A stretch of DNA of 51,611 nt. It comes from Clostridia bacterium (GTDB lineage: Bacteria > Bacillota > Clostridia > Oscillospirales > Acutalibacteraceae). Below are positions 11,695 through 38,608 of the stretch, piece by piece (the first letter of the stretch is position 1; every line of letters starts with the position of its first letter). Both the position numbers and the translations under genes were made by a program. The notes under the pieces were generated by a model that saw only the letters and a list, made by a program, of their open reading frames with translations, was not told where the DNA came from and did not search any database. The DNA is taken from positions 1 to 51,611 of the forward strand of contig JAGASD010000008.1 in the NCBI GenBank assembly GCA_017621885.1. The letters are read 5' to 3'.

Positions 11695-11699
11695 TTTAT

Positions 11700-12422
11700 T
11701 CAATCCTTTAAATTGACATAATTAAATATACCCAAAGATATACAATATGCGATTTTCCTTTGATAATCCTCTGATTTTAAAAGCTCTGTTTCATTTACGT
11801 TAGAAAGAAAACCGCATTCAATAAGAACGGCAGGCTTTACAGCGTTATAAATAAGATAAACTGAATTATCGCATTTTTTTATCTGTCTGTTATTTTCAGG
11901 TTGAAGTGCTTGAGTAACTGTTTCCTGTACGCTTTGTGCAAGTTTTGAGCTTTCCTCAGCAAATTGAGGCGAATAGAAAACCTGCATACCGCTATATTTT
12001 TCAACAGAATAGTGGTTTTGATGAACACTTATAAACAAAGCGTTTTCTGTATTCTGCATAATCTTCATCCTGTTATGTATATCTGAAGTTTTTCTTGCTT
12101 TTATAGATAATTCAGGATTATCTTCAAGTGAAATATCCTCAGTTCTTGTGAGAATTGTGTTAAATCCGAATAAATTAAGGTATTCAGAAATATAAGCGGA
12201 AATTTTCAAGTTAATATCTTTTTCAATTGTACCGTCCTTTGCAGATGCTCCGCCGTCAAAGCCTCCGTGGCCGGCGTCAATAATTATAACAGGCATATTA
12301 ACTGAAGCATCTGAATTAACATGAACAGAATATTTGTTTTTATAGATAATCGAGGACGATAAAATCAGAGAACATATCAGAATCGGTATTATAATTAAAA
12401 AAAGTTTTTTCAAAAAAATCAC
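11700..12422 (-). CDS. N-acetylmuramoyl-L-alanine amidase, CwlD-like
   Basis: A 240-residue Amidase_3 protein with an N-terminal membrane/signal segment (about 5-28). The zinc-site motifs are visible: IIIDAGHGGFDGGA, a catalytic-region Glu soon after in EKDINLKIS, SVHQNHYS, and the C-terminal ECGFLSNVNE. CwlD removes peptide from cortex muramic acid so that muramic-delta-lactam can form; the single-domain anchored architecture and length of about 240 fit CwlD better than large autolysins. The start is either GTG at 12422 or TTG at 12413, the latter having GGTGA at better spacing. Adjacent to radA. A generic cell-wall amidase cannot be excluded. Confidence 0.78.
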   Translation of the reverse strand: MIFLKKLFLIIIPILICSLILSSSIIYKNKYSVHVNSDASVNMPVIIIDAGHGGFDGGASAKDGTIEKDINLKISAYISEYLNLFGFNTILTRTEDISLEDNPELSIKARKTSDIHNRMKIMQNTENALFISVHQNHYSVEKYSGMQVFYSPQFAEESSKLAQSVQETVTQALQPENNRQIKKCDNSVYLIYNAVKPAVLIECGFLSNVNETELLKSEDYQRKIAYCISLGIFNYVNLKD

Positions 12423-12451
12423 CGATAATATATATGCAATATTTAAGTAAG

Positions 12452-13114
12452 TTATTTAAATTCTGTGCCGTCTTTCATTAAAAGTTTATGTCTTGTGATT
12501 CTGTGAAGAATATCCTTGCGGCCTATTTTTTCAAACAAAGCGTTACAAAAGCTTACAGGATTGACGGTAAAATCATTACCTGCCGGTAAAATAAATCGTA
12601 AATTTACATAATTATCAGTGTAATTAGCATGAAAATTCTTTAAATGCTCACTTGCGTTTATTGTCTTAAAACCGCCTTTTTTTACTTTCTTATCAAAGGT
12701 TATATCTTTCTCAGTAACTGTTTTCTTAATAAGCTCACAAAGCACCTTGGAGTTGCTTTCACAAGGAATCTGAACAGTATATTCACCTGAATGAATGGCG
12801 AGGGGTTTGTTTAAAGGTTCAGCAATCTCTACAAACTCAATTCCGGGAACCATAACACTGTTCAACTGTTCGATTACCCTTTCTAAAGGATAATTATCAT
12901 CATTAAGACGGATGTCGAGAGGCTCTCTTATACCTTCAACTCCGAGCGGCAAGGACAAACCGAAAACAAGATGCGGATGCGGATTAAAACCTTCTGTATA
13001 CCACAATGGAATATCGGTTCTTCTGAACGCTCTTATCAGGCAACGTGTTAAATCAAGGTGCGATATATATTTAGCTGTATCTTTTTTATTAAACCATATT
13101 CTTACAGAGCGCAT
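12452..13114 (-). CDS. TIGR03936/DUF2344 radical-SAM-associated protein
   Basis: A 220-residue soluble protein with the family's opening RSVRIWFNKKDTAKYISHLD and the conserved YTEGFNPHPHLVFGLSLPLGV block. It belongs to DUF2344 (TIGR03936), which always accompanies or is fused to the TIGR03960 radical SAM protein; function is unknown. The ATG at 13114 has GGAGG at 8-bp spacing and overlaps the 3' end of the TIGR03960 gene by 26 bp, which indicates translational coupling. An upstream in-frame start would add 14 residues but lacks a ribosome site. Confidence 0.88.
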   Translation of the reverse strand: MRSVRIWFNKKDTAKYISHLDLTRCLIRAFRRTDIPLWYTEGFNPHPHLVFGLSLPLGVEGIREPLDIRLNDDNYPLERVIEQLNSVMVPGIEFVEIAEPLNKPLAIHSGEYTVQIPCESNSKVLCELIKKTVTEKDITFDKKVKKGGFKTINASEHLKNFHANYTDNYVNLRFILPAGNDFTVNPVSFCNALFEKIGRKDILHRITRHKLLMKDGTEFK

Positions 13115-14951
13115 CGCACTTACCTCCGTTGAGTGAATTTGAGCCGCAAGCAGCACATTGCTGTCTGCAATGATTTGTGATTTCAGCTTTTTTTGCCTTT
13201 TCGTTTTCAGAAATCAAAAAGCTTTTCTTAATACCTGAATTAATGTGATCCCAAGGAAGAATTTCCTCATAGGAACGACGGCGGTTGGCATAAAACTCAG
13301 TTGATAATCCGCACTCTTCAAAGGCATTCATCCATACGTCAAATTTAAATTTATCATCCCAGCTATCGAATTTACAACCGTTTTTAAACGCTGTTTCTAT
13401 TACATCGCAAAGTCTTCTGTCACCGCGGGCAAACACGCCCTCAAGGAAGGTTAAATCTGTATTATGGAATCGGAAAGTAATTTTCTTTGTTGAACAAGTT
13501 TCTAATAAAAGCTGTTGTTTACGCTTTAATTCTTCTCTCGTATCCTGGGGTTCCCATTGAAAAGGTGTGCAAGGCTTCGGAACAAATGATGAAACACCGG
13601 CACTAACGTTAACACCCTTCCCCTTGGGCTTATCGGGATTATTATAAAATTCGTCAACCACCTTTTGAGAAAGCTGATTAATCCCGATAACGTCTTCGTC
13701 TGTTTCGGTTGGTAAGCCAATCATAAAATAGAGTTTAACTGCTGTCCAACCGCCTACAAATGCTTTTCTGCAAGTATCAAGTATCTCTGCTTCGGAAATA
13801 TTTTTATTGATTACGTCACGCAAGCGCTGTGTACCCGCTTCTGCGGCAAAAGTAAGTCCGGATCTGCGTACCAATGCGAGTTTTTCCTTCAGTTCATCAG
13901 AAAAGTTATCTATGCGCAATGACGGAAGAGCCACGTTAATTTTTTGCGGAATTGCCCAACCCAACAGTTCTTCAAGCAATTCTGTTATTTTAGTGTAATC
14001 GCTGCTTGAAAGTGAGCAAAGAGATAGTTCATCATATCCGCTTGTGCAAGCAAGACGACGACTTTGCTTACTTATAGTATCAACTGTTTTTTCTCTTATG
14101 GGTCTGTACCAGAAACCCGCTTGACAAAAACGGCAGCCTCTGATGCAGCCTCTGAAAATTTCGTGTACAACTCTGTCGTGTACGACCTCAACAAAAGGAA
14201 CGACAAATTTTTCGGGATAAAAAACGGAATCAAGGTCAGAAACAACGCGCTTATTTACTTTTTCAGGTGCGCCGTCTGTTGCAGTAACACTTTTAATTGT
14301 ACCGTCTGCATTATATTCTACATTATATAAAGACGGTACGTAAATCCCCTCGATTTTTGAAGCTGCCTTCAGAAAATCGCAACGTGAAGCTCCCTTCTTT
14401 TTATACTCATTGAGAAGGTCAAGAAATTCAAGCATAACCTCCTCCCCTTCACCGATTTGAAAACAATCTATAAAATCAGCTAAGGGTTCAGGATTACAAA
14501 CGCATGGACCTCCGGCGATTATAATGGGGGTTTTCAATGAATCGCCACGGTTTGCAGACCTTAAAGGTATGTTCGAAAGGTCAAGCATATTCAGTACGTT
14601 TGTAAATGACAATTCATATTGCAAAGTGAAACCGATAACATCAAAATCAGCAAGGGCATCTCGACTTTCAAGACCGAAAAGCGGGATGTTTCTTTCACGC
14701 ATAATATTTTCCATATCGGTATCCGGTGCAAAAACTCGCTCACACCAGAAATTTTCTCTTGAATTTATAAGGCTGTATAAGATTTTCATACCGAGATGAG
14801 ACATTCCGATTTCATACGTATCCGGAAAACAAAATGCAAATCTTAAATCTATATTATCTTTATTTTTTATAACAGAATTCAATTCACCGCCCGTATATCT
14901 TGCAGGCTTTTGTACAAGCGGAAAAATCGCTTCAATTTTATTGCTAAGCAT
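13089..14951 (-). CDS. TIGR03960 B12-binding-type radical SAM protein
   Basis: A 620-residue radical SAM enzyme. An N-terminal cobalamin-binding-like region (about 30-200, with AFCFPDTYEIGMSHLGMKIL) precedes the SAM core with the iron-sulfur motif CIRGCRFCQAGF near residue 270. The C-terminus ends in a cysteine-rich tail (CRQQCAACGSNSLNGGKC) that may hold another metal or cluster. Family members sit with TIGR03936, as here with a 26-bp overlap; the reaction is unknown but conservation next to ribosome/RNase genes elsewhere has suggested RNA or protein modification. Length is normal for the family. Confidence 0.9.
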   Translation of the reverse strand: MLSNKIEAIFPLVQKPARYTGGELNSVIKNKDNIDLRFAFCFPDTYEIGMSHLGMKILYSLINSRENFWCERVFAPDTDMENIMRERNIPLFGLESRDALADFDVIGFTLQYELSFTNVLNMLDLSNIPLRSANRGDSLKTPIIIAGGPCVCNPEPLADFIDCFQIGEGEEVMLEFLDLLNEYKKKGASRCDFLKAASKIEGIYVPSLYNVEYNADGTIKSVTATDGAPEKVNKRVVSDLDSVFYPEKFVVPFVEVVHDRVVHEIFRGCIRGCRFCQAGFWYRPIREKTVDTISKQSRRLACTSGYDELSLCSLSSSDYTKITELLEELLGWAIPQKINVALPSLRIDNFSDELKEKLALVRRSGLTFAAEAGTQRLRDVINKNISEAEILDTCRKAFVGGWTAVKLYFMIGLPTETDEDVIGINQLSQKVVDEFYNNPDKPKGKGVNVSAGVSSFVPKPCTPFQWEPQDTREELKRKQQLLLETCSTKKITFRFHNTDLTFLEGVFARGDRRLCDVIETAFKNGCKFDSWDDKFKFDVWMNAFEECGLSTEFYANRRRSYEEILPWDHINSGIKKSFLISENEKAKKAEITNHCRQQCAACGSNSLNGGKCDALCKNMV

Positions 14952-15014
14952 TGCAACAACTCCATTTGAAATTTATGAATATATTTTACAATAAAAAAGT
15001 CGAATAATCAAGTA

Positions 15015-15051
15015 AAAAACATCGCCGAGTTATACAAAATAACACGGCGAT
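15015..15051 (-). terminator. Terminator of the O-antigen ligase-like gene
   Basis: ATCGCCG (15021-15027) pairs with CGGCGAT (15045-15051), with further partial pairing inside. On the leftward transcript the stem is followed by GUUUUUUAC. It sits just after the 15059 stop and separates this gene from the radical-SAM operon. Confidence 0.8.
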
Positions 15052-15058
15052 TATAAAT

Positions 15059-16531
15059 TTATGAAGCTTTTCGTTTGTCTTTCAAACGTTTTCTGAATTT
15101 ATGAAAAATCGGAATTTTTTCCTGCACTTCTCCATCATCACATTTTTCAACTACTACCATAAACAAAGTGATCAAAAGAAGATACGGCATCGGGCATAAA
15201 ATACCCGGGTTAACAAGTGACATCATTTCCAGACTGATGTAAGAAAGAAAAACTGTCATATTAAACAGTGTAGCTTTTTTCCATATAAGCATATTTCTTT
15301 TAATGAACTGATAAATAAATGCTACTATACCAACAATGCCGAAGCTTGCGGCAATTTGTATGGGTTCACAATGATACCAACAAAGAGCACCATCTTTATT
15401 CTTGAATATATCTCTGTTGCCCATGTAACCGAGACCTGTTCCGAAAATCGGGTGATTGAAGAAGTCTTCAACACCTCTTGCATAATGTCTTACACGTGTT
15501 TCTGTATCAACACCGCCTAAAAGGAAGTCATTCAGAACATTAAATAAACGTGTAAAAGTGTAATTAAGGAATTGAGTAATCTGCGGAAGGAAAATTAATA
15601 CGCCAAACAAAATGCAAAGAGTAATAATGCCATATGCAAGTCTGCGTCGACGGTCATAAAGAACAAACATAACAATACACATTACAATTTCAATAGAACC
15701 GAAAATCATTCCTCCGCGCGAACCTGTGAGTAAAAGAGCTAAATAATAGATAAATCCCACTATAGTGGAATATGACTTTGTATTACCTCTGAGGAAAGCG
15801 AACGGCATTGTAATCATAAGAATTGTTGAGATATTGTTACGCCATCTTATAAAGAAAATACCGCCCTTGTCCATAACTGTATTAATATTGAGTAAATAGT
15901 GGGCAAGAACCATAAATGAGGCAAAAAGCCCTACTACTACCATAATTTTAGTCAAACGTTCAATTAAAGAGTACTCTTCAGAAGTATTAATTTTAGCATA
16001 GAAAAAGCAATATATCAAAACCATACCAAAGCCCATACCAAGCATATGATATATTGAAGAGCCGCCAAAATAATCCTTTGCTGAAATAAAGCCTATACCG
16101 CCAAGCATAACAGCAATTGAAACAAAAAGCATCGGTTTAAACTGTGAACCTTTTGTCGATAATTTAACTCTGTATGCAATTACATTAAATAATGCCATAG
16201 GAATAATCGGTACCAAAGCCCAGGCTATGCCTAAAAATGTAGAAAGAGAGTTATAACACCTGATGGCTATCATATATGTAAATAAGGTTGGCAAAAGCAT
16301 AGTAAGGATATCACCGCTTACAACGAAAGTGATACCACTGATATATGCAAGGAAAACAGTTCCCCATATATGAAATTGTTTTTCCGGGAAATAGGAATGC
16401 AGACACGCAAAAACTGCTGTTACAAAGAAAAGAATACCAATCCACCTGTCACTTAACAAAAAGTCGCGAAGCTTATTAAGCTTTTTTAAACCGGATTCAG
16501 ATTTTATAAAATATTCCATGTATAATACCAC
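15059..16531 (-). CDS. O-antigen ligase/polymerase-family membrane protein
   Basis: A 490-residue protein with roughly 12 membrane helices. The large loop between later helices carries the Wzy_C/O-antigen-ligase pattern: LTGSRGGMIFG, then FNHPIFGTGLGYMGNRDIF and WYHCEPIQIAASFGIVG. Such proteins polymerise or transfer surface polysaccharide from lipid carriers; in Gram-positive Clostridia the acceptor is unknown. The N-terminal start is uncertain (GTG at 16531 or ATG at 16519; neither has a strong ribosome site). It stands alone between the radical-SAM operon and the SpoIVFB-like gene, with its own terminator. Confidence 0.82.
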   Translation of the reverse strand: MVLYMEYFIKSESGLKKLNKLRDFLLSDRWIGILFFVTAVFACLHSYFPEKQFHIWGTVFLAYISGITFVVSGDILTMLLPTLFTYMIAIRCYNSLSTFLGIAWALVPIIPMALFNVIAYRVKLSTKGSQFKPMLFVSIAVMLGGIGFISAKDYFGGSSIYHMLGMGFGMVLIYCFFYAKINTSEEYSLIERLTKIMVVVGLFASFMVLAHYLLNINTVMDKGGIFFIRWRNNISTILMITMPFAFLRGNTKSYSTIVGFIYYLALLLTGSRGGMIFGSIEIVMCIVMFVLYDRRRRLAYGIITLCILFGVLIFLPQITQFLNYTFTRLFNVLNDFLLGGVDTETRVRHYARGVEDFFNHPIFGTGLGYMGNRDIFKNKDGALCWYHCEPIQIAASFGIVGIVAFIYQFIKRNMLIWKKATLFNMTVFLSYISLEMMSLVNPGILCPMPYLLLITLFMVVVEKCDDGEVQEKIPIFHKFRKRLKDKRKAS

Positions 16532-16622
16532 ACAAATCCATTATAATTAATTTCAATTATATACAAATTCGGTTAAATTTCAATATTTATTACAAAACCT
16601 TAACATTTGTAATATTTTGCAT

Positions 16623-17210
16623 TTAAAGTTTCTCGAACAGAAATAAAGAAACAATCATATAGGTGCTCATAATTAAAAAGAAAATATTTTTACGGTAGCG
16701 AATGTATGCAGTAACGGATAATGCAATAAAAGAAAGACAAACAGCAAAAGACATGCTATATACAATGGCTTTTGCTGTTTTTAACTCAACCTTGTTGCAC
16801 AAAAGAAAGAATATCGCTCTGCCGCCGTCAAAGCTGTAAAAAGGCAATATATTAAAAACTCCTATGAATATATTTACATACGCCCAATAGCATTTACGGC
16901 TGAAAATCAGAGAAGCCAATCCCAGAAAAATATTAAATAACGGTGCGCACAGATTTATTAATGCCTCTTGATTGTTGCTCAGAATTTTTCTGTTAGCTTT
17001 TTTAATTTTACCACCGAAAATATTGAATGATATTTCAGAAATACCATCTTTAAAAAGTAATATAAGAATAATGTGTACCGTTTCATGAATTAAAGAAGCT
17101 GACAGCGTTTCTGAAAACAGATTTAATCTGTCCGCCAACGCACAAACAAGAAATGATAATAAAAAAGAAAAACTGACAGATATATCAGTTGATTTTATCT
17201 TAAACCTCAT
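16623..17210 (-). CDS. Site-2 metalloprotease, SpoIVFB-like
   Basis: A small (195-residue) M50 intramembrane protease. The zinc motif HETVH (residues 42-46) lies in the second hydrophobic segment, and the second metal motif NILPFYSFDGGRA (Asn120, Pro123, Asp128) lies in a later helix. Both are intact. In B. subtilis SpoIVFB releases sigma-K from its membrane proform under control of SpoIVFA. The gene overlaps the end of an M23 membrane protein gene by 11 bp, the same order as spoIVFA-spoIVFB. The ATG at 17210 is chosen for the GAGG upstream; an ATG three codons earlier is possible. The substrate is inferred from context. Confidence 0.75.
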   Translation of the reverse strand: MRFKIKSTDISVSFSFLLSFLVCALADRLNLFSETLSASLIHETVHIILILLFKDGISEISFNIFGGKIKKANRKILSNNQEALINLCAPLFNIFLGLASLIFSRKCYWAYVNIFIGVFNILPFYSFDGGRAIFFLLCNKVELKTAKAIVYSMSFAVCLSFIALSVTAYIRYRKNIFFLIMSTYMIVSLFLFEKL

Positions 17211-17961
17211 CAACCGCCTCATCAAGAGCAATCTGAGGATTGTAGCAAATATCGTTGATTCTCAACTCAAAATGCAGATGCGGCCCTGTTGAAGAGCCTG
17301 TAGAGCCTACAGTAGCAATTACTTCACCTGCACCGACCTTTGCACCTTTCTCAGCTAACAGTTCGTCACAGTGGCAATAAACGGTCATAACCCCATTGTC
17401 ATGTTGAATTTTAATATGATAACCGTTCCACTCATCATATTCTGATTCTGTTATTACTCCGTTAAAAGCTGATTTTATCGGTGTCCCCTTTTGCGCGGCA
17501 ATATCTATACCTGAATGAAAGCTTAAATTTTCTTTTATCGGATGAATCCGTACACCGTATTCAGAAGTAATTCTTCCTTTTACAGGTGTAAACATTTGTT
17601 GATTTAAAGAGTAGTTGTTTACGGATACGTTATCGGGAATTACGTTTTTATCACTTATATCAACATCATTTCCGCCAACCCCTACCTCCGGTATAAGAGC
17701 ATCCTCAGAATCGTTTTTGGTATCTTCATCCGCCATATGAAATTCCGACGTATTTAAAGACTCCGGTTTTTTATCAACAACAAACTCTGAGTTTTCAATT
17801 ACACTATTATCGTTTAAATTGTCAAAAAAGTCGTATTTAATACTTTTTAAACATTCCGGTCTAAGGTTATTTAATGCAAATAAAGCACCAAATAACATAG
17901 CGCAAACTAAGAATTGATATAATATAGTAGTTGAAAGGTAGTCCTTTTTGTTTTTTTCCAT
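17200..17961 (-). CDS. Membrane-anchored M23 peptidase, SpoIVFA-like
   Basis: A 253-residue bitopic protein: membrane helix at about residues 11-28, an acidic linker (30-120), then a LytM/M23 domain. The full zinc-ligand set is present: HSGID (H-x3-D), the YCHC histidine, and GPHLHFEL (HxH). Beside a SpoIVFB-like protease this is most simply SpoIVFA, the regulator of that protease. Intact ligands leave open that it is an active endopeptidase or a SpoIIQ-like protein. The start codon follows a hairpin that includes its GGGTGA ribosome site. Confidence 0.7.
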   Translation of the reverse strand: MEKNKKDYLSTTILYQFLVCAMLFGALFALNNLRPECLKSIKYDFFDNLNDNSVIENSEFVVDKKPESLNTSEFHMADEDTKNDSEDALIPEVGVGGNDVDISDKNVIPDNVSVNNYSLNQQMFTPVKGRITSEYGVRIHPIKENLSFHSGIDIAAQKGTPIKSAFNGVITESEYDEWNGYHIKIQHDNGVMTVYCHCDELLAEKGAKVGAGEVIATVGSTGSSTGPHLHFELRINDICYNPQIALDEAVDEV

Positions 17962-25648: not shown

Positions 25649-26950
25649 ATGGAACGTTATTATCAACAGAATATTGAAACTGCAAGCCGTGAGCAAATCA
25701 AAGCGTGGCAGGACGAAAGACTTGTAAAGCAAGTTAAACACGTATGGGAAAACGTACCTTATTACCGTCAGAAAATGGAAGAAAAAGGTGTTGCTCCCGA
25801 CGATATAAAAGGAACAGAAGACCTTTATAAGCTCCCCTTTGTTACTAAAGATGATTTAAGAGAGGGATATCCTTACGGACTTCTTGCAAAACCTCTTAAA
25901 GAGTGTGTAAGAATTCACTCAACCTCCGGCACAACAGGTAAAAGAGTTATGGCATTCTATACACAGCACGATATTGATTTGTGGGATGATTGCTGCGCAA
26001 GGGCTCTTGTCGCTGCCGGTGCTACAAACGAAGATGTTTGTCACGTTGCTTATGGTTACGGTCTTTTCACAGGCGGCATGGGGCTTCACGGCGGCAGCCA
26101 TAAGGTTGGTTGTCTCACTCTCCCGGTTTCATCAGGTAATACCGAAAGACAGATTATGTTTATTCAGGATTTACAGTCAACAATTCTTTGCTGCACCCCC
26201 TCTTATGCTGCATATCTTGCAGAATCAATGAAGGAGGCAGGTATTACTAAAGAGCAGCTTTCACTCAAAGCCGGTATTTTTGGTGCAGAAGCCTGGAGTG
26301 AAGAGATGCGCAGGGATATTGAAAACTCTCTCGGTATCAAGGCTTATGATATTTACGGTCTTACAGAGCTTTCGGGTCCCGGTGTTGCTTTTGAATGCTC
26401 TGCACAGAGTGGTATGCATATCAACGAAGATCATTTTATTGCAGAAATAATTGATCCTGACACAGGTGAGGTTCTCCCTGAAGGTTCAAAGGGCGAGCTT
26501 GTTTTTACTTCAATTACAAAGGAAGCTTTCCCCATTCTTCGTTACCGCACTAAAGATATCTGTATGCTGACACGTGAAAAATGCCCGTGCGGAAGAACAT
26601 TTATTAAAATGTGCAAGCCTATGGGAAGAAGCGACGATATGCTTATCATCCGTGGTGTTAACGTATTCCCGTCACAGATTGAAACAGTTCTTATAAATCA
26701 GGGGTATTCAGCAAACTATCAGATTATCGTTGACCGTGTTAAAAATACCGATACACTTGATGTTCAGGTTGAAATGACCCCCGAAATGTTCACCGATAAC
26801 GTTGGTGAAATTAACCGAAGACAGAAAGAGTTGGTTGAAGGCTTACGTTCAATGCTTGGTCTTTCTGCTAAGGTTACATTGGTTGCACCCAAATCAATTG
26901 TGCGAAGCGAAGGTAAGGCTGTACGTGTAATTGACAAACGTAAAATTTAA
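25649..26950 (+). CDS. Phenylacetate-CoA ligase (PaaK-like)
   Basis: A 433-residue AMP-forming acyl-CoA ligase of the PaaK branch. The adenylation motif HSTSGTTGKR, the YDIYGLTELSGPG block and the late RYRTKDICML...RSDDMLIIRGVNVFP segment are clear. It activates phenylacetate or another aryl acetate with ATP and CoA. GGAGG precedes the ATG. The next gene is a double-ACT protein 14 bp away; this pair usually accompanies indolepyruvate ferredoxin oxidoreductase (iorAB) in aromatic amino acid fermentation, but iorAB is not nearby. A strong promoter lies upstream. Confidence 0.93.
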   Translation: MERYYQQNIETASREQIKAWQDERLVKQVKHVWENVPYYRQKMEEKGVAPDDIKGTEDLYKLPFVTKDDLREGYPYGLLAKPLKECVRIHSTSGTTGKRVMAFYTQHDIDLWDDCCARALVAAGATNEDVCHVAYGYGLFTGGMGLHGGSHKVGCLTLPVSSGNTERQIMFIQDLQSTILCCTPSYAAYLAESMKEAGITKEQLSLKAGIFGAEAWSEEMRRDIENSLGIKAYDIYGLTELSGPGVAFECSAQSGMHINEDHFIAEIIDPDTGEVLPEGSKGELVFTSITKEAFPILRYRTKDICMLTREKCPCGRTFIKMCKPMGRSDDMLIIRGVNVFPSQIETVLINQGYSANYQIIVDRVKNTDTLDVQVEMTPEMFTDNVGEINRRQKELVEGLRSMLGLSAKVTLVAPKSIVRSEGKAVRVIDKRKI

Positions 26951-26964
26951 CGGAGGTAGCTACA

Positions 26965-27399
26965 ATGAGTATTAAACAGATTTCAGTTTTTGTTGAAAAC
27001 AAACCCGGCGCAATGAGTGCTATGACCGCAGTTTTGGCAGAAAACAACATTAATATGCGTGCGCTTTCCCTTGCAGAAACCTCGGATTTCGGTATTGTAC
27101 GTATAATTGTTGATGATATTTATAAGGCTACAACTGTTTTGAAGGATGCAGGTTACATTCATTCTGTAACCGACGTTATTGCAGTTGGACTTCCTAACAT
27201 CCCAGGTGGTTTAAACAAAGTTCTTAACATTATTGAGGGTGCAGGATTGAATATTGAATATATGTACGCTTTCCTTGGTAAAAAAGAGAAAAATCACGCT
27301 TATATGATTTTCAGAGTTCAGGATGATGCACTTGCAACTGCAACCTTAAAGGCAGAGGGTATACGCATACTTGATCAGGAAGCGGTTGAACATTTTTGA
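26965..27399 (+). CDS. Tandem ACT-domain protein
   Basis: The 144 residues form two ACT units: KQISVFVENKPGAMSAMTAVLAENNINMRALS starts the first and VGLPNIPGGLNKVLNIIEGAGLNIEYMYAF the second. ACT domains bind amino acids and control partner enzymes. It is the second gene of the phenylacetate-CoA ligase operon with GGAGG before the ATG, so it probably senses an aromatic amino acid or a related ligand (inference). It ends shortly before a bidirectional terminator. Confidence 0.9.
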   Translation: MSIKQISVFVENKPGAMSAMTAVLAENNINMRALSLAETSDFGIVRIIVDDIYKATTVLKDAGYIHSVTDVIAVGLPNIPGGLNKVLNIIEGAGLNIEYMYAFLGKKEKNHAYMIFRVQDDALATATLKAEGIRILDQEAVEHF

Positions 27400-27493: not shown

Positions 27494-27530
27494 AAAGCAA
27501 CGGCAGTGTCACATATGATGACACTGCCGT
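27494..27530. terminator. Bidirectional terminator between ACT and DHDPS-like genes
   Basis: ACGGCAGTGTCA (27500-27511) and TGACACTGCCGT (27519-27530) form a perfect 12-bp stem with a 7-base loop. The leftward transcript then has GCUUUUUU; the rightward one has a weaker AATTTCATTTT. It serves the two convergent genes. Confidence 0.85.
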
Positions 27531-27534
27531 AATT

Positions 27535-28458
27535 TCATTTTAAATCATATTGCTTTTTAATTTCCTCGGTAAACCTGTGCATCTGTTCAATTTCAATTTT
27601 GCGGCTTGAGAACAAATCAGCACTGCTGCGTGTTCTTGTATGAATACCGATATCAACACCGTCAAGACTCATATAGTATTTTGCATTTACGGGATAGCAC
27701 TGACATTCTGTAAGAGAAAAGAATCCAACCATATTCTCAAGAAATTCGGCCTTTTCTTCATCCCCTGTTTTGATGGCTTCAATAAGCTGTGAATAAAGCT
27801 CCGGATGGAAATTAGCCATAACACCGGAATAACCTTCACAACCCATACGAATGCTTTCTGCAAGTGTTGCGCCGTTTGCGTTAAAGAGCATAATATCACT
27901 ACCCTTTACAGCTTCAAGCTTTTCAGCAATTTTAGGAAGACTGCAGCAGGTGTCTTTAATAAACATATATTTTCCGGTTTTAGCCATTTCTTTCAATATG
28001 TAGGGATTAAGCTCTCGTTTATAAGGATACGGACACTCGTAAACACCTAAAGGAATTTCAGGTAAAGAATCCGCTACATAAGCCATGTTTTTAAGAAGAA
28101 TATCATCATCTTCATCTTCTTTTGCAAATCTGTTGGAAATAAAAACGTAAGCATCTATGCCTGTTTCAATAAACGCTTTCGCCTCTTTAATCTGCGTATC
28201 GAGGTCATCGGATGTGTGACCTGATGCAACAATCGACATACCTTCGGGCTTGTTCGCCATAATAAATTTAAGTAAATCAAGTCTTTCTTCAAAAGACAGA
28301 AAGAAAATTTCGCTGCTCTGACAAATGGCAAAAATACCGTCTGTGCCCTTTTTAGCATACCAGTCAAGAATCTGCTTTACACCGTTGTAATCAATCTTAT
28401 TATCTTCGGTAAAAGGTGTTATCATTGTTGGATACACACCGGTATTAATTTTTTTCAT
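27535..28458 (-). CDS. DHDPS/NAL-family aldolase, non-canonical
   Basis: A 307-residue class I aldolase-type TIM barrel related to DapA and N-acetylneuraminate lyase. The Schiff-base lysine is Lys168 (FIKDTC) and the catalytic tyrosine Tyr140 (GVYECPYPYKR). The usual GTTGE substrate loop is replaced by CQSSE (46-50), and the arginine after the tyrosine is displaced, so the substrate is not the dapA one. A 2-keto-3-deoxy sugar acid, sialic acid or related compound is plausible (inference). It is divergent from the GNAT-membrane-GH110-like operon across a 20-bp palindrome. GAGGTGG precedes the ATG. Confidence 0.85.
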   Translation of the reverse strand: MKKINTGVYPTMITPFTEDNKIDYNGVKQILDWYAKKGTDGIFAICQSSEIFFLSFEERLDLLKFIMANKPEGMSIVASGHTSDDLDTQIKEAKAFIETGIDAYVFISNRFAKEDEDDDILLKNMAYVADSLPEIPLGVYECPYPYKRELNPYILKEMAKTGKYMFIKDTCCSLPKIAEKLEAVKGSDIMLFNANGATLAESIRMGCEGYSGVMANFHPELYSQLIEAIKTGDEEKAEFLENMVGFFSLTECQCYPVNAKYYMSLDGVDIGIHTRTRSSADLFSSRKIEIEQMHRFTEEIKKQYDLK

Positions 28459-28486
28459 AGTACCACCTCTCTGAACATATTATCAC

Positions 28487-28506
28487 ATTTATTTTTAAAA
28501 ATAAAT
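28487..28506. promoter_or_regulatory. 20-bp perfect palindrome in the divergent promoter region
   Basis: ATTTATTTTT followed by its exact complement AAAAATAAAT. It lies between the divergent DHDPS-like and GNAT genes, its last base touching the GNAT -35 box. This position suits an operator controlling both directions. No regulator gene is adjacent. Confidence 0.5.
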
Positions 28507-28534
28507 AGACTTTTACAAAATAATTTTATATAAT
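28506..28534 (+). promoter_or_regulatory. Promoter of the GNAT-membrane-GH110-like operon
   Basis: -35 TAGACT (28506-28511), 17-bp spacer and a perfect -10 TATAAT (28529-28534). Transcription would begin around 28541, after the ATG at 28538, so the TTG at 28562 with GAGG upstream is the better start of the GNAT gene. Confidence 0.6.
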
Positions 28535-28561
28535 AATATGAAAGTTTGTGAGGTGTTAGCT

Positions 28562-29125
28562 TTGGCAATCAGAATGTACAAAAAAGAAGATTATGACAAC
28601 ATAATTAACGTTTGTCTCGATACAGAGGATTTAAACGTACAAAAAGCCCCTATTTATCAATACATTAAGCTTATGTTCTGCAGGTATTATATTGAAAAAG
28701 AACCTGAAAATTGTGTTGTAGTTACAGATGAAAACGATAAAGCGGTCGGATATGTTTTCGGTGCAAGTAACTATGATGCATATCACAAGGAAATGGAAGA
28801 ATATCTTATGGGCATATTCGAAATCGAAAACGGCAAATTTGTTCCTGATGCCTACGTTGAAATGTATAATCATTATATTTACAAGGACGAATACCCTGCT
28901 CATTTACATATCGATATTTTTGGCAGCCACAGAAGCAAGGGCTACGGCTCGGATATGATCGAAGTTTTTTGCAATAACCTCAGAAACAAGGGCATAAAAG
29001 GTGTTATGCTGATTGTTGGTGTAGAAAACACCCGTGCTCAGAAATTTTATGAAAGAAACGGTTTTGTTTTACTTAACAAAAAAGACACCGGATATGCTTA
29101 CGGTAAAAAACTTCTGGAGGATTAA
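28562..29125 (+). CDS. GNAT-family acetyltransferase
   Basis: A 187-residue GNAT protein. The acetyl-CoA-binding motif A is at HIDIFGSHRSKGYGSDMIEV, followed by GVENTRAQKFYERNGFVLL, typical of small-molecule or protein N-acetyltransferases. It starts with TTG, preceded by GAGG; the promoter position argues against the ATG 24 bases upstream. It is the first of three tightly packed genes (3 bp to the membrane protein gene). The substrate is not visible; an amino sugar would fit the context. Confidence 0.85.
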   Translation: MAIRMYKKEDYDNIINVCLDTEDLNVQKAPIYQYIKLMFCRYYIEKEPENCVVVTDENDKAVGYVFGASNYDAYHKEMEEYLMGIFEIENGKFVPDAYVEMYNHYIYKDEYPAHLHIDIFGSHRSKGYGSDMIEVFCNNLRNKGIKGVMLIVGVENTRAQKFYERNGFVLLNKKDTGYAYGKKLLED

Positions 29126-29128
29126 GTA

Positions 29129-30667
29129 GTGGATAACCTGGCTGCTGTTTTGCTGATTTTTTCTGCAATTGCCGCAACCTCATACGCTTGGGGTATGCGC
29201 GGTACAACAATCGGCGGAGAAAAAGGCGCGATGCTTCCCGGTGCTTTAATCGGGCTCTTGCTTGCCGTGTTCAGCGACGTTCTTATTGTTCGTGAACATT
29301 TTTATATATTTTCTGCGCTTGGTGCCGTTTCAATGTATTTCGGCGGTTCAATGACCTATGGCGAAACATTGGGTCTTTCAATGAATAGCAAGCCTGCGGA
29401 GAACATGAAAAAAGGGCTTTTAGGTGTATTCGTTAAAGGTTTTCTTTGGTTTGGTTCGTTTGGTGCGATTTTTTCAACAGGCATAAACGCTGTTTGCTAT
29501 CAATATACAGTTTTAGAAATTGCGATTGTTTTCTCCCTTGCGATAATTGCAGGCGTTGTTTTTTACATTTTACTCAATAAGCCTCTGAAAAAAGGAAGCA
29601 AACAACCTAAAATATATTTTTCAAAGACACGTCAGGAAAGCTGGGGCTCTCTTCTTGGCGTCTATTTGGTGTTGCTCGTTTTCGGATTGTTGAGATTGAA
29701 TACACTAACAATAGTATTTTCTGTCTGTTGCGCTTTGTTTGGCGGTTTCGGGTGGCTGTTGGGACAATTGATACAGATTTATTCAATTCATTATGCAAAA
29801 GAAAACATTTTTTTCAGCAAGATATTATCCCGTTCAAATAACGTGGATTCCTGGAAAATTATGGAATGTGTTTTCGGTGCTTTCGGTGGCATCGGAGCTG
29901 CAATCAGTTTTATTATTACGTACCCTGTTTTCAAATCAACAGTATTCACTCTTGAAATTAACGGTGGCTTAATGCCGTTTAACAGAACATTATCGCAGGT
30001 ATTATTCATTATCTGGCTCGTCTTGATTTGTGCGGATATGGTTCATTATTTTATAAAGAAGCCTATATTAAAATCTGATTTGAAAAATTTATTGGATAAG
30101 GGTGAAATTTCCCAAGCACAATACTCCGCAAAATTAATTAAGGCTGTTGACGAAATACCGAAAAGATATAAAGCTTATGATAAAATCACCGTATTATCCG
30201 AACCTGTTTTATATGGTGTTTTCTCGTTCATTATGATTTCGCTTGGTGGCAGGAATGCAGCAATTGCAACATCAGTTTTTATATTGTTTTTGGTTATTTC
30301 CCAGGAAATTGCACTTGAAAAGAAAATCAATAAAGTTTTCAATCTTACAATGATTTTTTTACTTGCGATTGTAAGCGTTTTAATTCTCGTTCTGCAATTA
30401 GCCTTCGGTTATATATTTAATGATTTTATGACCCTTATTCTTTACACAGCGGCTTATGAAATTCTGACTCTTATCTGGTTATTTCCTCAAGAAATTAAAA
30501 AAAACAGCAACGAAGATGATATTGAGTTAAATTTCTTTAAAAACATTTTTAAGAAAATCAAGTTGTTTTTCAGAAGTAAAGCGCTTATTAAAGTTCACGT
30601 TTACTTTATATTCTGCATAATGATCACGATTCTGCTTTTTGTTATAAATAAGAATATTTACTATTAA
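29129..30667 (+). CDS. Polytopic membrane protein of unrecognised family
   Basis: A 512-residue protein with about 11-12 hydrophobic helices and a hydrophilic stretch around 300-360. No standard transporter family is recognised. Conspicuous N-terminal motifs are YAWGMRGTTIGGEKGAMLPG (about residues 19-38) and FGGSMTYGETLGL, with Gly-rich helix repeats later (FGGFGWLLGQ, FGAFGGIGAA). The charged and Gly residues within the first helical hairpin suggest a substrate or ion path (inference). The start is GTG with GGAGG upstream, 3 bp after the GNAT gene; the GH110-like gene follows after 24 bp. A sugar or sugar-acid transporter, or a membrane enzyme, would fit the operon. Confidence 0.6.
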   Translation: MDNLAAVLLIFSAIAATSYAWGMRGTTIGGEKGAMLPGALIGLLLAVFSDVLIVREHFYIFSALGAVSMYFGGSMTYGETLGLSMNSKPAENMKKGLLGVFVKGFLWFGSFGAIFSTGINAVCYQYTVLEIAIVFSLAIIAGVVFYILLNKPLKKGSKQPKIYFSKTRQESWGSLLGVYLVLLVFGLLRLNTLTIVFSVCCALFGGFGWLLGQLIQIYSIHYAKENIFFSKILSRSNNVDSWKIMECVFGAFGGIGAAISFIITYPVFKSTVFTLEINGGLMPFNRTLSQVLFIIWLVLICADMVHYFIKKPILKSDLKNLLDKGEISQAQYSAKLIKAVDEIPKRYKAYDKITVLSEPVLYGVFSFIMISLGGRNAAIATSVFILFLVISQEIALEKKINKVFNLTMIFLLAIVSVLILVLQLAFGYIFNDFMTLILYTAAYEILTLIWLFPQEIKKNSNEDDIELNFFKNIFKKIKLFFRSKALIKVHVYFIFCIMITILLFVINKNIYY

Positions 30668-30691
30668 CGTGTATAGATACGGTGATGAGCT

Positions 30692-32308
30692 ATGAATGAA
30701 TTATGTAAATTGTTTTTACATGTGAATAACCACTCAAAAATTACACTTGAAAACAATAAAACATACCACGTTTATCAGGATGATTCGTTTATCGTTGACG
30801 GATACTTCTGCTCCAACACTGCCAAGAAGGACGAAAATCCCACAGGCTTGCGTTTCAGCGCAATTTACCTAAAAGGCAAGAAAGACATCGTAATTGATGG
30901 TAACGGCGCTGAAATCATAGTTCACGGTAAAATGACGCCAATTCTATTGGACAAGTGCGAAGATATCGTTATCAGAAACCTTTCTATTGATTACGCCTGC
31001 CCTACTATGAGCGAATTTAAGGTTGTTTCCGGCATCGGAAGTGAATATATCCTCAAAATAAACGATGAATGTCTATTTGAAATTGAAGACAACATATTAT
31101 ATTGGCATGGCGAAAGAGATAAACATGGTGAATATTACTGGCGCGATACAAATTCCGGATTTAAACGATACATAAAATACTTTAACCCGAAAAAACAGCA
31201 AAGCTATGACTTTAACAGAGATAATCTGACGTTTGAGCGGATTAAATTAATTAATGATAATACGCTTTCGGTTACGTTGAAGAATAAAGATATAACTTTA
31301 CCCGTTGGCTGTATTTTTCAGTCCCGCAGTATTGTACGTGACCAAATCGGTGCTTTAATTCAAAGATCAAAGAATATCACATTTGAAAGCTTACGTGTTA
31401 AATTTATGCACGGTTTAGGTATGGTTTCTCAATTTTCTGAGAATATCAGCTATTATAATTGTGATTTTACCCCCGGTAAAGGCAGAACAATTACCAGTAC
31501 CGCAGATTTCTTTCAATTTTCAGGCTGTAAAGGCGATATAATTATCAATAACTGCAAGGCATGGGGCGCACATGATGATTTTGTGAATGTTCACGGAACA
31601 CATCTGGGAATCATTGAAGCTGATCTTTCGGCTAATAAACTGCTCGTACGTTTTATGCATCCTGAAAGCTGGGGTTTTCAAGCTTTTGACAAAGGCGATG
31701 CTATTGATTTTATTAAATGGGATACTTTACAGCCTTACCACACACTAACGGTTACCGATTTTCGAAAAATCAATGATACGGATATTGAACTTTCCCTTGA
31801 CGGAACGTTGCCTGATATTGAGTTAGAAAAAGACGTTGTCGAAAACGCAACCTATACACCAAATCTGTATGTAAAAAATTGTTATTTCGGTACTACTGCT
31901 GCAAGAGGTATTTTGTGTACAACTCGCGGTGAGGTTATTATTGAAAACAACGTTTTTGAGAATCTTTGGGGTCCTGCACTTTTGATTGAAGATGATTGCA
32001 ATTTTTGGTTTGAATCAGGATACACAACAAATATCATTTTCAGAAATAACGTTGTTTCAAATTGCGAATATCATGAAACTGTTTACGGTGCACCCGTAAT
32101 AAGGTATTCACCGAAGGTCTTGCGTGAGAATGTTGACACCTTCGTGCACGGTAAATTAACCGTTGAAGGTAACATTTTCAAAAATCCGACAACTGTTAAA
32201 CACAGATTTTTATTACAACATCTAAGAAAAGCTGTAATCAAAAACAATACCTTTGATGCTGAATTTGAAATACAGGCTTTTAACGTGGGGCAAATTATCA
32301 GCGAATAG
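30692..32308 (+). CDS. GH110-like beta-helix glycosidase
   Basis: A 538-residue right-handed parallel beta-helix protein with repeated short strands (IVIDGNGAEI, IVIRNLSIDY, ITFESLRVKF). The block FFQFSGCKGDIIINNCKAWG followed by AHDDFVNVHGTHLGI, then VRFMHPESWGFQAF and later TTRGEVIIENNVF...LLIEDDCNFWFESG, resembles GH110 alpha-1,3-galactosidases. The acidic pair in AHDD and other conserved acids are candidate catalytic residues. No signal peptide, so cytoplasmic. It is the last gene of the GNAT operon with GGTGATGAG as a ribosome site. A general beta-helix carbohydrate enzyme (pectinase-like) is the alternative. Confidence 0.75.
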   Translation: MNELCKLFLHVNNHSKITLENNKTYHVYQDDSFIVDGYFCSNTAKKDENPTGLRFSAIYLKGKKDIVIDGNGAEIIVHGKMTPILLDKCEDIVIRNLSIDYACPTMSEFKVVSGIGSEYILKINDECLFEIEDNILYWHGERDKHGEYYWRDTNSGFKRYIKYFNPKKQQSYDFNRDNLTFERIKLINDNTLSVTLKNKDITLPVGCIFQSRSIVRDQIGALIQRSKNITFESLRVKFMHGLGMVSQFSENISYYNCDFTPGKGRTITSTADFFQFSGCKGDIIINNCKAWGAHDDFVNVHGTHLGIIEADLSANKLLVRFMHPESWGFQAFDKGDAIDFIKWDTLQPYHTLTVTDFRKINDTDIELSLDGTLPDIELEKDVVENATYTPNLYVKNCYFGTTAARGILCTTRGEVIIENNVFENLWGPALLIEDDCNFWFESGYTTNIIFRNNVVSNCEYHETVYGAPVIRYSPKVLRENVDTFVHGKLTVEGNIFKNPTTVKHRFLLQHLRKAVIKNNTFDAEFEIQAFNVGQIISE

Positions 32309-36628: not shown

Positions 36629-37384
36629 CTAAACAACACAAGCAGTTCGATTTTTTAGTATTTTTTCGCAAATTTCCAAATCCTCGGGCGTATTAATTCC
36701 GCGAAGATCATCACCATCTTGAGTAAAATAGGTGTCAACAGCCATACCATTTTTCACCATAAGCTCAGGCACTTCAGTAACATAGTACTCTTTTTGAGCA
36801 TTGGAACAGCCAACTTCGGGCAAAATTTCAAAAAGCGACTTACTATTAAACACCATAACTCCCGAAAACAGTTCTTTTACTTTTTCTTGTTCCGGTGAGC
36901 AATCTTTACCTTCAACAATGCGTTTAAAATTACCGTTTTTATCACGGATAACTCGTGCCCAAAGCTTTAAAGAGGCATTTTCCGCAGTCATCAAAGTGCA
37001 GTCAGCTCCGCGTTCAGCGTGCTGCTGACACATAGCTTTCATCTCTTCGTAACGGAATAAAGGCATATCTCCAAAGGTAATTTAAACGTTTCCGTCAAAG
37101 TCTTCAAAAGCTTTTGCACATTCCATAACAGCGTGTCCCGTTCCGAGCTGCTGTTTCTGTTCAACGTAATTATATGTGTCACCAAAATAGTTAATAATTT
37201 TCTCCTTACCGTAACCCACAACAATGTAAGTGTTTTCTTTATCAATAAAAGAAACATTATTCAAAACAAAATCAAGAATTGGTCTGTTTGCAACCGAAAA
37301 CATCGCTTTGGGCAAGTCACCGCAAATCCGCTGAAGTCTGCTACCCTTTCCTGCCGCAGGAATTATCACTCTTATAGAATCCAT
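36629..37384 (-). pseudogene. NTP-transferase gene broken by an in-frame TAA
   Basis: Both halves lie in one frame and together make one complete nucleotidyltransferase of about 251 residues. The first 100 residues have IIPAAGKGSRL, the lysine of GDLPKAMF and QLGTGHAVMECA. A TAA (minus strand, 37084-37082) interrupts between GNV and ITFGDMPLF, where the family has a hydrophobic residue (typically Leu, TTA) before the GD-P motif. The rest continues normally with the ELFSGVMVFNSKSLFEIL and YYVTEVPELM segments to the end. The enzyme would resemble GlmU-type sugar-1-phosphate uridylyl- or nucleotidyltransferases. A TTA to TAA change would explain the break. It is 21 bp downstream of the damaged kinase gene. 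Confidence 0.85.
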
Positions 37385-37405: not shown

Positions 37406-38526
37406 TTAACTAACCTTTGCATTAAGCCCTTGATTATCGTAGATTTTTTGAAGAATATTTTTTATCTCAGGCAATTTATTCTCCATATCCTCCAAAAGCT
37501 TTAGCTGTGTTCGCGCTCTGTCAAGATTCTGACCCTCATATTCAATTTTATAATATGTATCCCCGTTTATATGATCCGTCAAAAAACGAATACCATCTTC
37601 TGCGGTAATAATCAAGGCTGAATACGGAAGCAACTCCAACTCTTCTTTTGTCAGAATTTCACCGCAAGCCTCAAGATATCCTCCGGCGTACGCTTCATAG
37701 AGCTGCGTATCACAAGCAACCTTTCTGAGATCCTTTTCATCATCCTTTGCAGTATTTGTACCAATCCTCATACTGTCACCAAAGTCATACAACGGAGAAG
37801 AGGGCATAACGGTATCCAAATCAATAATTGCAACAGGAAGATGAGTGTTTTCATCAAAAAGTATATTATTCAGATTGCAGTCGTTATGACAAATTCTTGT
37901 GGGTATTCTCCCCTCCTCCAACGCCTCGGCAATTATACCGAAAAGTTGGGTGCGTGCACGAATGAAAGAAATTTCATCTGCAATTGCTTTAACTCTTTTT
38001 GCGGATCATGAGAAACGTCGATTTCAAAATCCCGGTAGCGACTCATTGTATTATGGAAATTCGGGATAACTTCTTTGATTTTTCCGGCATCAACAGAGCT
38101 AACAGCTTCTAAAAACCTACCAAAAGAAAGTCCGGAATAATAAAACACTTCAGGATTTTCGGGAATATCAAGTGAATATACATTATCAAAATAAGTCATC
38201 ATACGCCAAGCGCCTGAATTATCTTCAAAATAAAGCTTGCCGTCTTTTGTGGGCCGCAAGGTTTGTACATTTCCTCTTTTATGTTTTCCCGGCATATTGA
38301 GTTTGTCAGATAAGTGAGCAGTTATTATCCGGTAATTGTTCATCAACGCTTCAACATTCGTAAATACATTAGTATTGATTCGCTGAAGAATATATTTATG
38401 CACATTATGCTCGGTCTCAGTCTCAACCAAATACGTGCGATTTATGTAACCCTTGTTTATCTGTTCAATTTTTTTAACAGCTCCTTGAATCAGGAAGTTT
38501 TCTGTTACATTCAGAAGATTACACAT
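37406..38526 (-). pseudogene. NahK-like sugar kinase gene with a frameshift
   Basis: This is an N-acetylhexosamine 1-kinase-like phosphotransferase (APH fold). The N-terminal part has INKGYINRTYLVET and YILQRINTNVFTNVEALM. The C-terminal part has the catalytic CHNDCNLNNILFD and the metal motif AVIDLDTVMP. The frames differ by one base: adding one A to the five-base A-run at 37996-38000 (T-run on the + strand) joins HDPQK to RVKAIADEISFIRARTQLFG without a break, giving about 373 residues, normal for the family. The start ATG at 38526 is supported by promoter position; an upstream in-frame ATG lies before the predicted transcription start. Sequencing error in the homopolymer is possible. Confidence 0.85.
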
Positions 38527-38579
38527 AATTAAAACGTCCCTATTGATATTATTGATTAGATGATATATCGCTTTTACCA

Positions 38580-38608
38580 ATTATATCTTATTTAAATAAT
38601 ATTTTCAA
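38580..38608 (-). promoter_or_regulatory. Promoter of the kinase/nucleotidyltransferase operon
   Basis: On the - strand: -35 TTGAAA (38608-38603), 17-bp spacer and a perfect -10 TATAAT (38585-38580). The promoter remains intact although both genes behind it are broken. The rest of 38609-38768 shows no gene. Confidence 0.75.

Follow-up and report, generated by a model that had tools for sequence, protein, structure and literature searches.

The question raised by this locus is whether an aldolase-like gene and the operon facing it, which encodes an acetyltransferase, a membrane protein and a galactosidase, serve one sugar pathway. The window, by which we mean the whole stretch of DNA analysed, comprises 51,611 nt of a Clostridia bacterium (Oscillospirales; Acutalibacteraceae; GCA_017621885.1, contig JAGASD010000008.1, 1-51,611 of the forward strand), and its host belongs to a gut-type Clostridia lineage. 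Four ORFs were confirmed at 27535-32308 by ORF reading of the window. The unannotated membrane protein is called MEM. The features are as follows.

27500..27530, seen on both strands: terminator-like hairpin of 12-13 pairs, 7 of them G-C
27535-28458, minus strand: aldolase-like protein of the DHDPS/NAL superfamily, 'CQSSE' subfamily, 307 aa (Pfam DHDPS at 95.4 bits, alignment of 7, PDB alignments)
28506..28534, plus strand: candidate promoter of the GNAT operon, TAGACT-17-TATAAT (scan and intergenic alignment)
28538-29125, plus strand: GNAT ORF, 195 aa, opening at ATG 28538; probable start TTG 28562 (28562..29125)
29129-30667, plus strand: MEM, unannotated polytopic membrane protein, 512 aa, GTG start
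30692-32308, plus strand: GH110-family galactosidase, 538 aa (PDB matches, residues mapped on 7jw4, hydropathy)

The layout described in the initial annotation, an aldolase gene divergent from a GNAT-MEM-GH110 operon with internal gaps of 3 and 24 bp, was confirmed from the ORFs, and spacing this short points to a single operon transcript here. Its four family calls were also borne out, since Pfam DHDPS, GNAT and PF23764 plus beta-helix were matched and the membrane protein has no Pfam family. The hairpin separates the aldolase gene from the PaaK-ACT genes that lie upstream, and a GH95 is encoded upstream in the window. However, the divergent gap, given as 79 bp, is probably longer. ATG 28538 stands only 3 bases behind TATAAT (28529-28534), while a GAGGTG site (28550-28555) is followed by TTG 28562, and both GAGGTG and TTG are preserved in loci L006 and L007 of the intergenic alignment. 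The GNAT ORF of L006 opens at the equivalent of TTG 28562, and that of L007 four codons earlier. Because ATG 28538 crowds TATAAT and GAGGTG precedes the conserved TTG, TTG 28562 is the more probable start of the GNAT, which would give a protein of 187 aa and a gap of 103 bp. The promoter scan found 28 sites against 21.3 expected, so the TAGACT-17-TATAAT match is weak by itself. Both hexamers are present in the window, L006 and L007, that is, in three of five aligned rows, because the L042 and L120 rows aligned to a different region.

GH110 enzymes remove alpha-1,3-galactose, and this linkage had been proposed for the window protein. Its Pfam match was PF23764 (GLAA-B barrel, 5.1e-20) plus beta-helix. 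All nine of its PDB matches were GH110 or alpha-galactosidase entries, and the similarity to solved GH110s (E 1.4e-58 to 2.6e-35) covers residues about 25-498. In the alignment with 7jw4, D272, D295 and D296 correspond to D321, D344 and D345 of PdGH110B, whose catalytic roles are described in the available part of PMC7939477. The catalytic Asp residues are kept in 20 of the 21 members of the GH110 cluster. At the -1 site, R216, N299, R405, E433, W439 and E441 match R265, N348, R453, E480, W486 and E488 of PdGH110B, with Asn85 of the galactose pocket falling outside the 7jw4 alignment. However, Arg451 at the +1 site of PdGH110B, said to be likely kept across GH110, is replaced by Ala403. No cluster member (0/21) has Arg at this column, and 8yk3, the closest match, has Pro there. 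The catalytic triad and the -1 site agree with the GH110 assignment, while the alpha-1,3 linkage becomes less sure because the +1-site Arg is absent. No signal peptide was evident in the GH110 by hydropathy, and no N-terminal 15-residue stretch rose above hydropathy 1.09 in the 20 Asp-retaining members.

The aldolase was regarded as a non-canonical member of the DHDPS family, relatives of which cleave keto-deoxy or sialic-type acids. Its superfamily was established by PF00701 (95.4 against a cut-off of 22.1 bits, E 3.3e-27) and by a fold search with 447 PDB matches at E <= 0.001, which did not indicate the substrate. K168 and Y140 align to the IKD and YNVP motifs of solved DHDPS; we take them to be the Schiff-base Lys and the catalytic Tyr of the DHDPS/NAL superfamily. 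CQSSE replaces the GTTGE-type motif. The other six aldolases in the alignment of seven are 57-90% identical to the window copy. All seven curated NCBIfam cut-offs matched, including DapA, NanA, KdgD and KDG-aldolase, were missed. The DapA score was 95.1 against 206.15 bits, a cut-off passed by two other proteins of the genome, and the NanA scores were 43.5 against 382 and 54.6 against 281.

It seems highly improbable that the locus serves sialic acid or 2,7-anhydro-sialic acid in the manner of the R. gnavus nan operon. Aldolase, Gfo/Idh and BNR_2 (sialidase-like) genes are adjacent in genomes G432 and G547, one BNR_2 protein aligns locally with a chain of an anhydrosialidase (1.1e-7), and L003, elsewhere in the host genome, is NanA-like although below the cut-offs (224.5 against 281, 202.2 against 382). 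On the other hand, the window aldolase is far from the NanA models and its operon has no sialidase or Gfo gene. NanE (ManNAc-6-P epimerase) had no match in the host genome (G000, assembly 94% complete) or in any of the four MEM-positive genomes of the genus, host included; among all 40 MEM-positive genomes, seven matched at E 0.001 and just five exceeded the cut-off. The canonical sialate route is therefore unlikely in the host. An MR_MLE-type (non-phosphorylative) sugar-acid route was not supported either, because PF13378, for acid-sugar dehydratases of the enolase superfamily, had no match in the host genome; 13 of 40 genomes matched it at E 0.001, one over the cut-off. With neither NanE nor an MR_MLE-type dehydratase matched in the host genome, the aldolase substrate is left unexplained.

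MEM has roughly 10-13 hydrophobic segments, judged from overlapping hydropathy stretches, and carries the motifs WGxRGxxxGGEKGAMLPGA and WKxMExxxG. The window protein matched nothing in Pfam or NCBIfam and had no relative among PDB sequences, viral contigs or plasmids. When the 47 members were compared with Pfam at E <= 1, no family was matched by more than four of them (best E 0.047); the single best match, 7tm_7 at 8.9e-5, came from one member and was judged spurious. A model built from a 4-sequence alignment (pLDDT 59) gave no PDB fold match at E <= 0.001, and the best, at E 0.022, was not significant. Comparing the halves of MEM with hhalign, with the cut placed at three different positions, showed no internal repeat, a hallmark of transporters. 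A defence system was rejected, as PADLOC had no match for MEM, the GNAT or the aldolase. MEM is present in 40 of 398 genomes of the host family (14 genera) and in five genomes of a second family (four genera). A phylum-level search gave 2/398, one being a 65-residue match in a region without MEM-like ORFs, judged spurious.

The hydrophobic segments and the charged residues conserved in the 47-member alignment would fit a transporter. Nine columns, including W242, K243, E246 and Y443, are invariant in 47/47, which would suit a membrane enzyme or scaffold working with the GNAT, for example one that hands acetyl groups or acetylated sugars on to a glycan of the envelope. The GNAT is also the commonest of the three MEM partners tested, and other genera have between one and three copies of MEM behind genes for a BNR_2 protein and a KdsB-type cytidylyltransferase. 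Known membrane acyltransferases, however, typically have a conserved histidine, and MEM has none in its invariant or nearly invariant columns. Several MEM neighbours are moreover catabolic-type glycosidases, and we consider the enzyme or scaffold role unlikely. Our best guess is that MEM imports a glycan fragment. Since no binding protein or ATPase is encoded in the window operon, any such transport would be secondary.

The GNAT had a Pfam match of 1.1e-10. Its profile matched SsAT (4bmh, 4.5e-28) and OgpAT (3zj0, 1.2e-17) in the PDB, the next best being 2.4e-11, and O-GlcNAcase 6r45 was reached at 2e-7. By these profile matches, it is a member of the bacterial group related to the C-terminal domain of human O-GlcNAcase. 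RSKGYG and a His, located by alignment, are predicted features of acetyl-CoA binding and acetyl transfer.

Whether these genes belong together was judged from 46 MEM loci, where matches less than 5 kb apart on one contig were merged and second-part rows of split MEM matches were omitted. The GNAT group lay within 8 kb of MEM at 18/46 loci in nine of 14 genera, a count that omits one split GNAT fragment (G711:C97), and the aldolase at 7/46, against 0.75 and 0.3 expected for uniform placement in 2.4-Mb genomes. GH110 was this close at 3/46 loci, all in one genus. The GNAT also lay within 8 kb of 10/38 aldolase matches. By genome, in counts where related genomes are not independent, the GNAT occurred in 37/40 MEM-positive and 10/40 MEM-negative genomes, the aldolase in 33/40 and 5/40, and GH110 in 24/40 and 7/40; the MEM-negative set is non-random, composed of G445, G633 and G693 plus the first 37 other genomes lacking a match. 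Both the GNAT profile and the aldolase profile derive from MEM-adjacent copies, so the search favours that subgroup. Tree labels follow the retrieved regions, and G547 is unlabelled though its GNAT adjoins another MEM fragment. Two other genomes preserve the gene order, and their four proteins are 57-90% identical to those of the window. This conserved order and the 18/46 against 0.75 place the association of the genes beyond chance. Since many related genomes have the GNAT and MEM together, the two probably function as a pair.

The neighbourhood survey covered 40 regions and the window (n=41; five of the 46 MEM loci were left out), with each neighbour cluster named via Pfam of one representative. 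Gfo/Idh was found in 11 neighbourhoods, BNR_2 in nine and a GH106-like gene in four; GH29 and GH92 appeared once each among the neighbours tested. A glycan-processing setting, as first proposed, is supported. Some loci, by eye, lie among housekeeping-looking genes (Hsp33-, TrpR- and tyrosyl-tRNA-synthetase-like).

The neighbours could also be a loose toolbox of two or three unrelated functions, in which only GNAT-MEM forms a unit, GH110 is a passenger and the aldolase works in another keto-acid route. This is a quite possible reading, held tentatively. It agrees with the restriction of GH110 linkage to one genus and with the 26 of 33 MEM-positive aldolase genomes that have no aldolase within 8 kb of MEM, some of which contig breaks may hide. 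It also agrees with a 5.7-kb insertion between MEM and GH110 in L007 and with two congeners: G633 has aldolase-GNAT-GH110 without a MEM match, and in G779 a GH110 search at E 1e-20 found nothing. However, three- and four-gene sets recur (that of G633, and aldolase-Gfo-GNAT-MEM in G398), the short gaps suggest a single transcript in the window, and the genome-level co-occurrence is strong. The dedicated four-gene pathway first envisaged is only partly supported: it keeps its GNAT-MEM linkage and, less often, the aldolase, but not GH110, which looks like an exchangeable add-on, other glycosidases being found elsewhere. The acetylated sugar first suggested may be a substrate.

With a probability of about 0.43, we favour a modular glycan-utilisation locus with a GNAT-MEM core, often an aldolase, and GH110 as the glycosidase of this genus. 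From the observed gene families, catalytic residues, lack of an evident GH110 export signal and genomic associations, we infer every transport and catalytic step and their unity in one pathway. MEM would take a sugar, either free or as an oligosaccharide, through the membrane, and a cytoplasmic GH110 would trim terminal alpha-galactose from the imported glycan, with the GH95 possibly trimming fucose or galactose. The GNAT would acetylate a small sugar acceptor and the aldolase would cleave a 2-keto acid. The GNAT-MEM core is often accompanied by a divergent aldolase and, in other genera, by a Gfo/Idh oxidoreductase. Counting against the modular locus are the missing fold match of MEM, the housekeeping-like neighbours, the GH110-MEM linkage in one genus, the G633 set without MEM, the absent +1-site Arg, the unexplained aldolase substrate, an operon with neither binding protein nor ATPase, and the profile bias and relatedness of the genomes behind the counts. 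A bolder form, which we regard as doubtful, holds that MEM is the first member of a novel family of secondary transporters acting on glycan fragments, as a unit with the O-GlcNAcase-AT-like GNAT, that GNAT-MEM-GH110 in this genus is a lac-operon-like triad of three unrelated protein families for alpha-galactosides, possibly ones whose aglycone is not galactose given the lost +1-site Arg, and that the GNAT acceptor is the imported sugar. If GNAT-MEM is a transport-and-acetylate unit, a function would be given to a MEM family of 14 + 4 genera in two families, together with a testable acceptor for the bacterial GNATs related to the C-terminal domain of human O-GlcNAcase, and a GH110 lineage that appears to be intracellular and has a changed +1 site would be added.

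No paper was found whose title or abstract start describes the aldolase-GNAT-MEM-GH110 gene set. The R. gnavus nan operon encodes a sialidase, an oxidoreductase, a DHDPS-family lyase and a transporter. This set resembles the Gfo/Idh, DHDPS-family and sialidase-like genes at MEM loci of other genera, but the window operon is without the sialidase and Gfo genes and the host genome without a NanE match; the 2,7-anhydro-Neu5Ac route of R. gnavus is the subject of PMC7535918. The window aldolase shares the fold, Lys168 and Tyr140 with DHDPS and N-acetylneuraminate lyase, and differs in CQSSE and the failed curated cut-offs. SsAT 4bmh and OgpAT 3zj0 are the best PDB relatives of the GNAT, and His135 of OgpAT corresponds to the second His of YPAHLHID. 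OgpAT adjoins a glycosidase, as does the window GNAT; its operon partner is GH84 (PMC3814719, available part), whereas the GNAT partners are MEM, the aldolase and GH110. For SsAT, a small-molecule acceptor is presumed (PMC3919268, available part), and the substrates of such bacterial GNATs were unknown as of these two 2013 structure papers, as far as their available parts state. The GH110 alpha-1,3-galactosidases (PdGH110B 7jw4, PpaGal 9i4f, 8pvs) and the alpha-galactosidases 8yk1-8yk3 have the beta-helix family, PF23764 and the Asp triad in common with the window GH110, which differs in the Ala at the +1-site Arg position, in having no evident signal peptide and in its linkage to GNAT and MEM; its activity is predicted. 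The lac operon of E. coli unites a galactosidase, a permease and an acetyltransferase. All three window proteins come from other families, the linkage is alpha and not beta, and the permease role of MEM is putative, but GH110, MEM and the GNAT likewise bring a galactosidase, a presumed permease and an acetyltransferase together.

The initial annotation described an aldolase gene facing a packed operon of three genes, and ORF calling on the window recovered all four genes with gaps of 3 and 24 bp within the operon.

27500-27530, both strands: terminator-like hairpin separating the aldolase gene from the PaaK-ACT pair
27535-28458, minus strand: DHDPS-like aldolase, 307 aa
28538 or 28562 to 29125, plus strand: GNAT
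29129-30667, plus strand: MEM, polytopic membrane protein, 512 aa
30692-32308, plus strand: GH110

Pfam identified DHDPS (95.4 bits), GNAT, and a GLAA-B barrel with a beta-helix, which is the GH110 architecture; no family was obtained for the window MEM. The divergent layout stands, but the reported 79-bp gap probably does not. The ATG at 28538 lies only 3 bases 3' of a TATAAT (28529-28534), and a GAGGTG site precedes the TTG at 28562. The GAGGTG site, the TTG and promoter-like hexamers are common to the window and two related contigs, L006 (water deer cecum MAG) and L007 (Oscillospiraceae MAG SIG569). Therefore, the GNAT likely starts at TTG 28562, which would leave a divergent gap of 103 bp. 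Between GH95 and the aldolase, positions 25649-27399 encode a PaaK-like CoA ligase and an ACT-type protein (named by eye), with 90-91% and 79-80% identity, respectively, in L006/L007. Elsewhere, 36629-37384 and 37406-38580 hold two ORF pairs, possibly pseudogenes or assembly errors: in one, an NTP-transferase-like ORF is followed by a stop and an in-frame ORF that Pfam assigns to no family; in the other, an APH-type kinase is split over two ORFs in different frames. Each pair was probably one gene formerly.

The single-protein search gave three named contigs. The order GH95, PaaK, ACT, aldolase, GNAT, MEM, GH110, HAD, PanE is maintained in L006 and L007, with MEM and GH110 5.7 kb apart in L007. 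By eye, that stretch (11587-17234) holds a GntR-type regulator, an ABC ATPase and membrane proteins, and further on a ceramidase-like protein, which at 31.8 bits narrowly misses the cut-off of 32.1, and a DegT-type aminotransferase. In L008 (roe deer rectum MAG), GNAT (36%) and MEM (34%) were retained out of nine window genes tested. A whole-genome search found MEM in 40 of the family's 398 genomes; in the order it was present in 7 of 394, five of them from another family. The window's own genome was the sole match among 398 genomes of the phylum, with one doubtful fragment set aside, and among 391 of the class searched with the window MEM alone.

Co-occurrence in related genomes, the check proposed initially, was found for GNAT and MEM. 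In the 46 MEM loci of the 40 genomes, a GNAT of the O-GlcNAcase-like group lay within 8 kb of MEM in 18 loci from 9 of 14 genera (0.75 expected), the aldolase in 7 loci from 3 genera (0.3 expected) and GH110 in 3 loci from one genus (0.25 expected), where expectations assume uniform placement of copies, the GNAT and aldolase profiles were built from copies beside MEM, and counts are uncorrected for relatedness. The claimed linkage with MEM holds for GNAT, more weakly for the aldolase, and is confined to one genus for GH110. By genome, MEM-positive versus MEM-negative and again uncorrected for relatedness, the counts were 37/40 versus 10/40 for GNAT, 33/40 versus 5/40 for the aldolase and 24/40 versus 7/40 for GH110. 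GNAT lay within 8 kb of 10 of 38 aldolase matches. The GNAT label required 8 changes on the MEM tree, whereas 500 shuffles averaged 14.6 and none came down to 8; therefore it is clustered, but spread beyond one branch.

The locus is a real finding, and its chief interest lies in MEM and the partnering GNAT rather than in GH110. The alignment of 47 MEM sequences has 9 invariant columns and the motif WGxRGxxxGGEKGAMLPGA. Against Pfam at E <= 1, no family matched more than 4 of the 47 members (best E 0.047); a single-member match at 8.9e-5 was taken as spurious. MEM had no relative in PDB and no match in PADLOC, and its poor AlphaFold model (4 sequences, pLDDT 59) resembled no fold in PDB at E <= 0.001. 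MEM neighbours vary by genus: Gfo/Idh with GH106-like genes, GH29, GH92, or BNR_2 sialidase-like genes accompanied by one to three copies of MEM and a KdsB-type cytidylyltransferase. Some loci sit among housekeeping-looking genes (by eye). One block recurs in six loci (L067, L068, L073-L076): GNAT, a ~403-aa protein with no Pfam family above cut-off, the cytidylyltransferase, the BNR_2 protein and MEM in one or two copies. In the version of this block from another family (L162), MEM is present three times and GNAT is absent from the fetched stretch.

The GNAT call was borne out by Pfam and by PDB, where a profile of 14 relatives matched SsAT (4bmh, 4.5e-28) and OgpAT (3zj0, 1.2e-17) ahead of other GNATs; human O-GlcNAcase entries also matched (2e-7). 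His135 of OgpAT, its proposed base (PMC3814719), has a matching residue in the window GNAT. The aldolase is, as annotated, a non-canonical DHDPS-family member: Lys168 and Tyr140 are in place, CQSSE replaces GTTGE, and it falls below all seven listed curated cut-offs. It is not needed as DapA, because two other proteins of the window's genome pass the DapA cut-off. The window encodes a DapA protein at 1279-2166 (319.6 against the NCBIfam cut-off of 206.15).

All nine PDB matches of the window GH110 are GH110 or alpha-galactosidase entries. Aligned to PdGH110B (7jw4), the catalytic Asp321, Asp344 and Asp345 (PMC7939477) correspond to Asp272, Asp295 and Asp296, and the -1-site R265, N348, R453, E480, W486 and E488 (PMC7939477) to R216, N299, R405, E433, W439 and E441. 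The +1-site Arg451, described as expected family-wide (PMC7939477), is Ala403. Since catalytic and -1-site residues are kept and Arg451 is replaced, sequence comparison supports an alpha-galactosidase well and the annotated alpha-1,3 preference less well. None of the 21 cluster members (the window protein and 20 relatives) has Arg at column 403, with Ser, Ala, Cys or Pro instead; the cluster's aglycone preference may therefore be new. The catalytic Asp are retained in 20 of 21; the exception, a second GH110-like protein of the window's genome (contig C21, 83943-85316; L152), keeps one of three and has also lost the -1-site Arg. Hydropathy over 15-residue stretches of the first 45 residues never rises above 1.09 in the 20 members, compared with 1.71 in the exception; by this measure a signal peptide is unlikely in those 20.

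The proposed dedicated pathway is partly right: GNAT-MEM and, more weakly, aldolase linkage support it, and a fixed four-gene set is not supported. In the same genus, G633 has GH95, aldolase, GNAT, GH110 and HAD in order and no MEM match genome-wide, and G779 has GNAT and MEM while a GH110 search at E 1e-20 found nothing. In G445, the aldolase, GNAT and GH110 genes lie apart from one another. Therefore, GH110 beside the GNAT-MEM core is a genus-level arrangement. The aldolase is not near MEM in 26 of 33 MEM-positive genomes carrying it. Canonical sialate catabolism is disfavoured by the missing NanE match in the window's genome and the other three MEM-positive genomes of the genus. An MR_MLE-type dehydratase had no match in the window's genome. 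On the most economical reading of the observed families, residues and linkage, MEM would be an importer, GH110 would act in the cytoplasm as an exo-alpha-galactosidase, the GNAT would acetylate a small sugar, and the aldolase may cleave a keto acid. Such a locus could be likened, by analogy, to lacZ-lacY-lacA.
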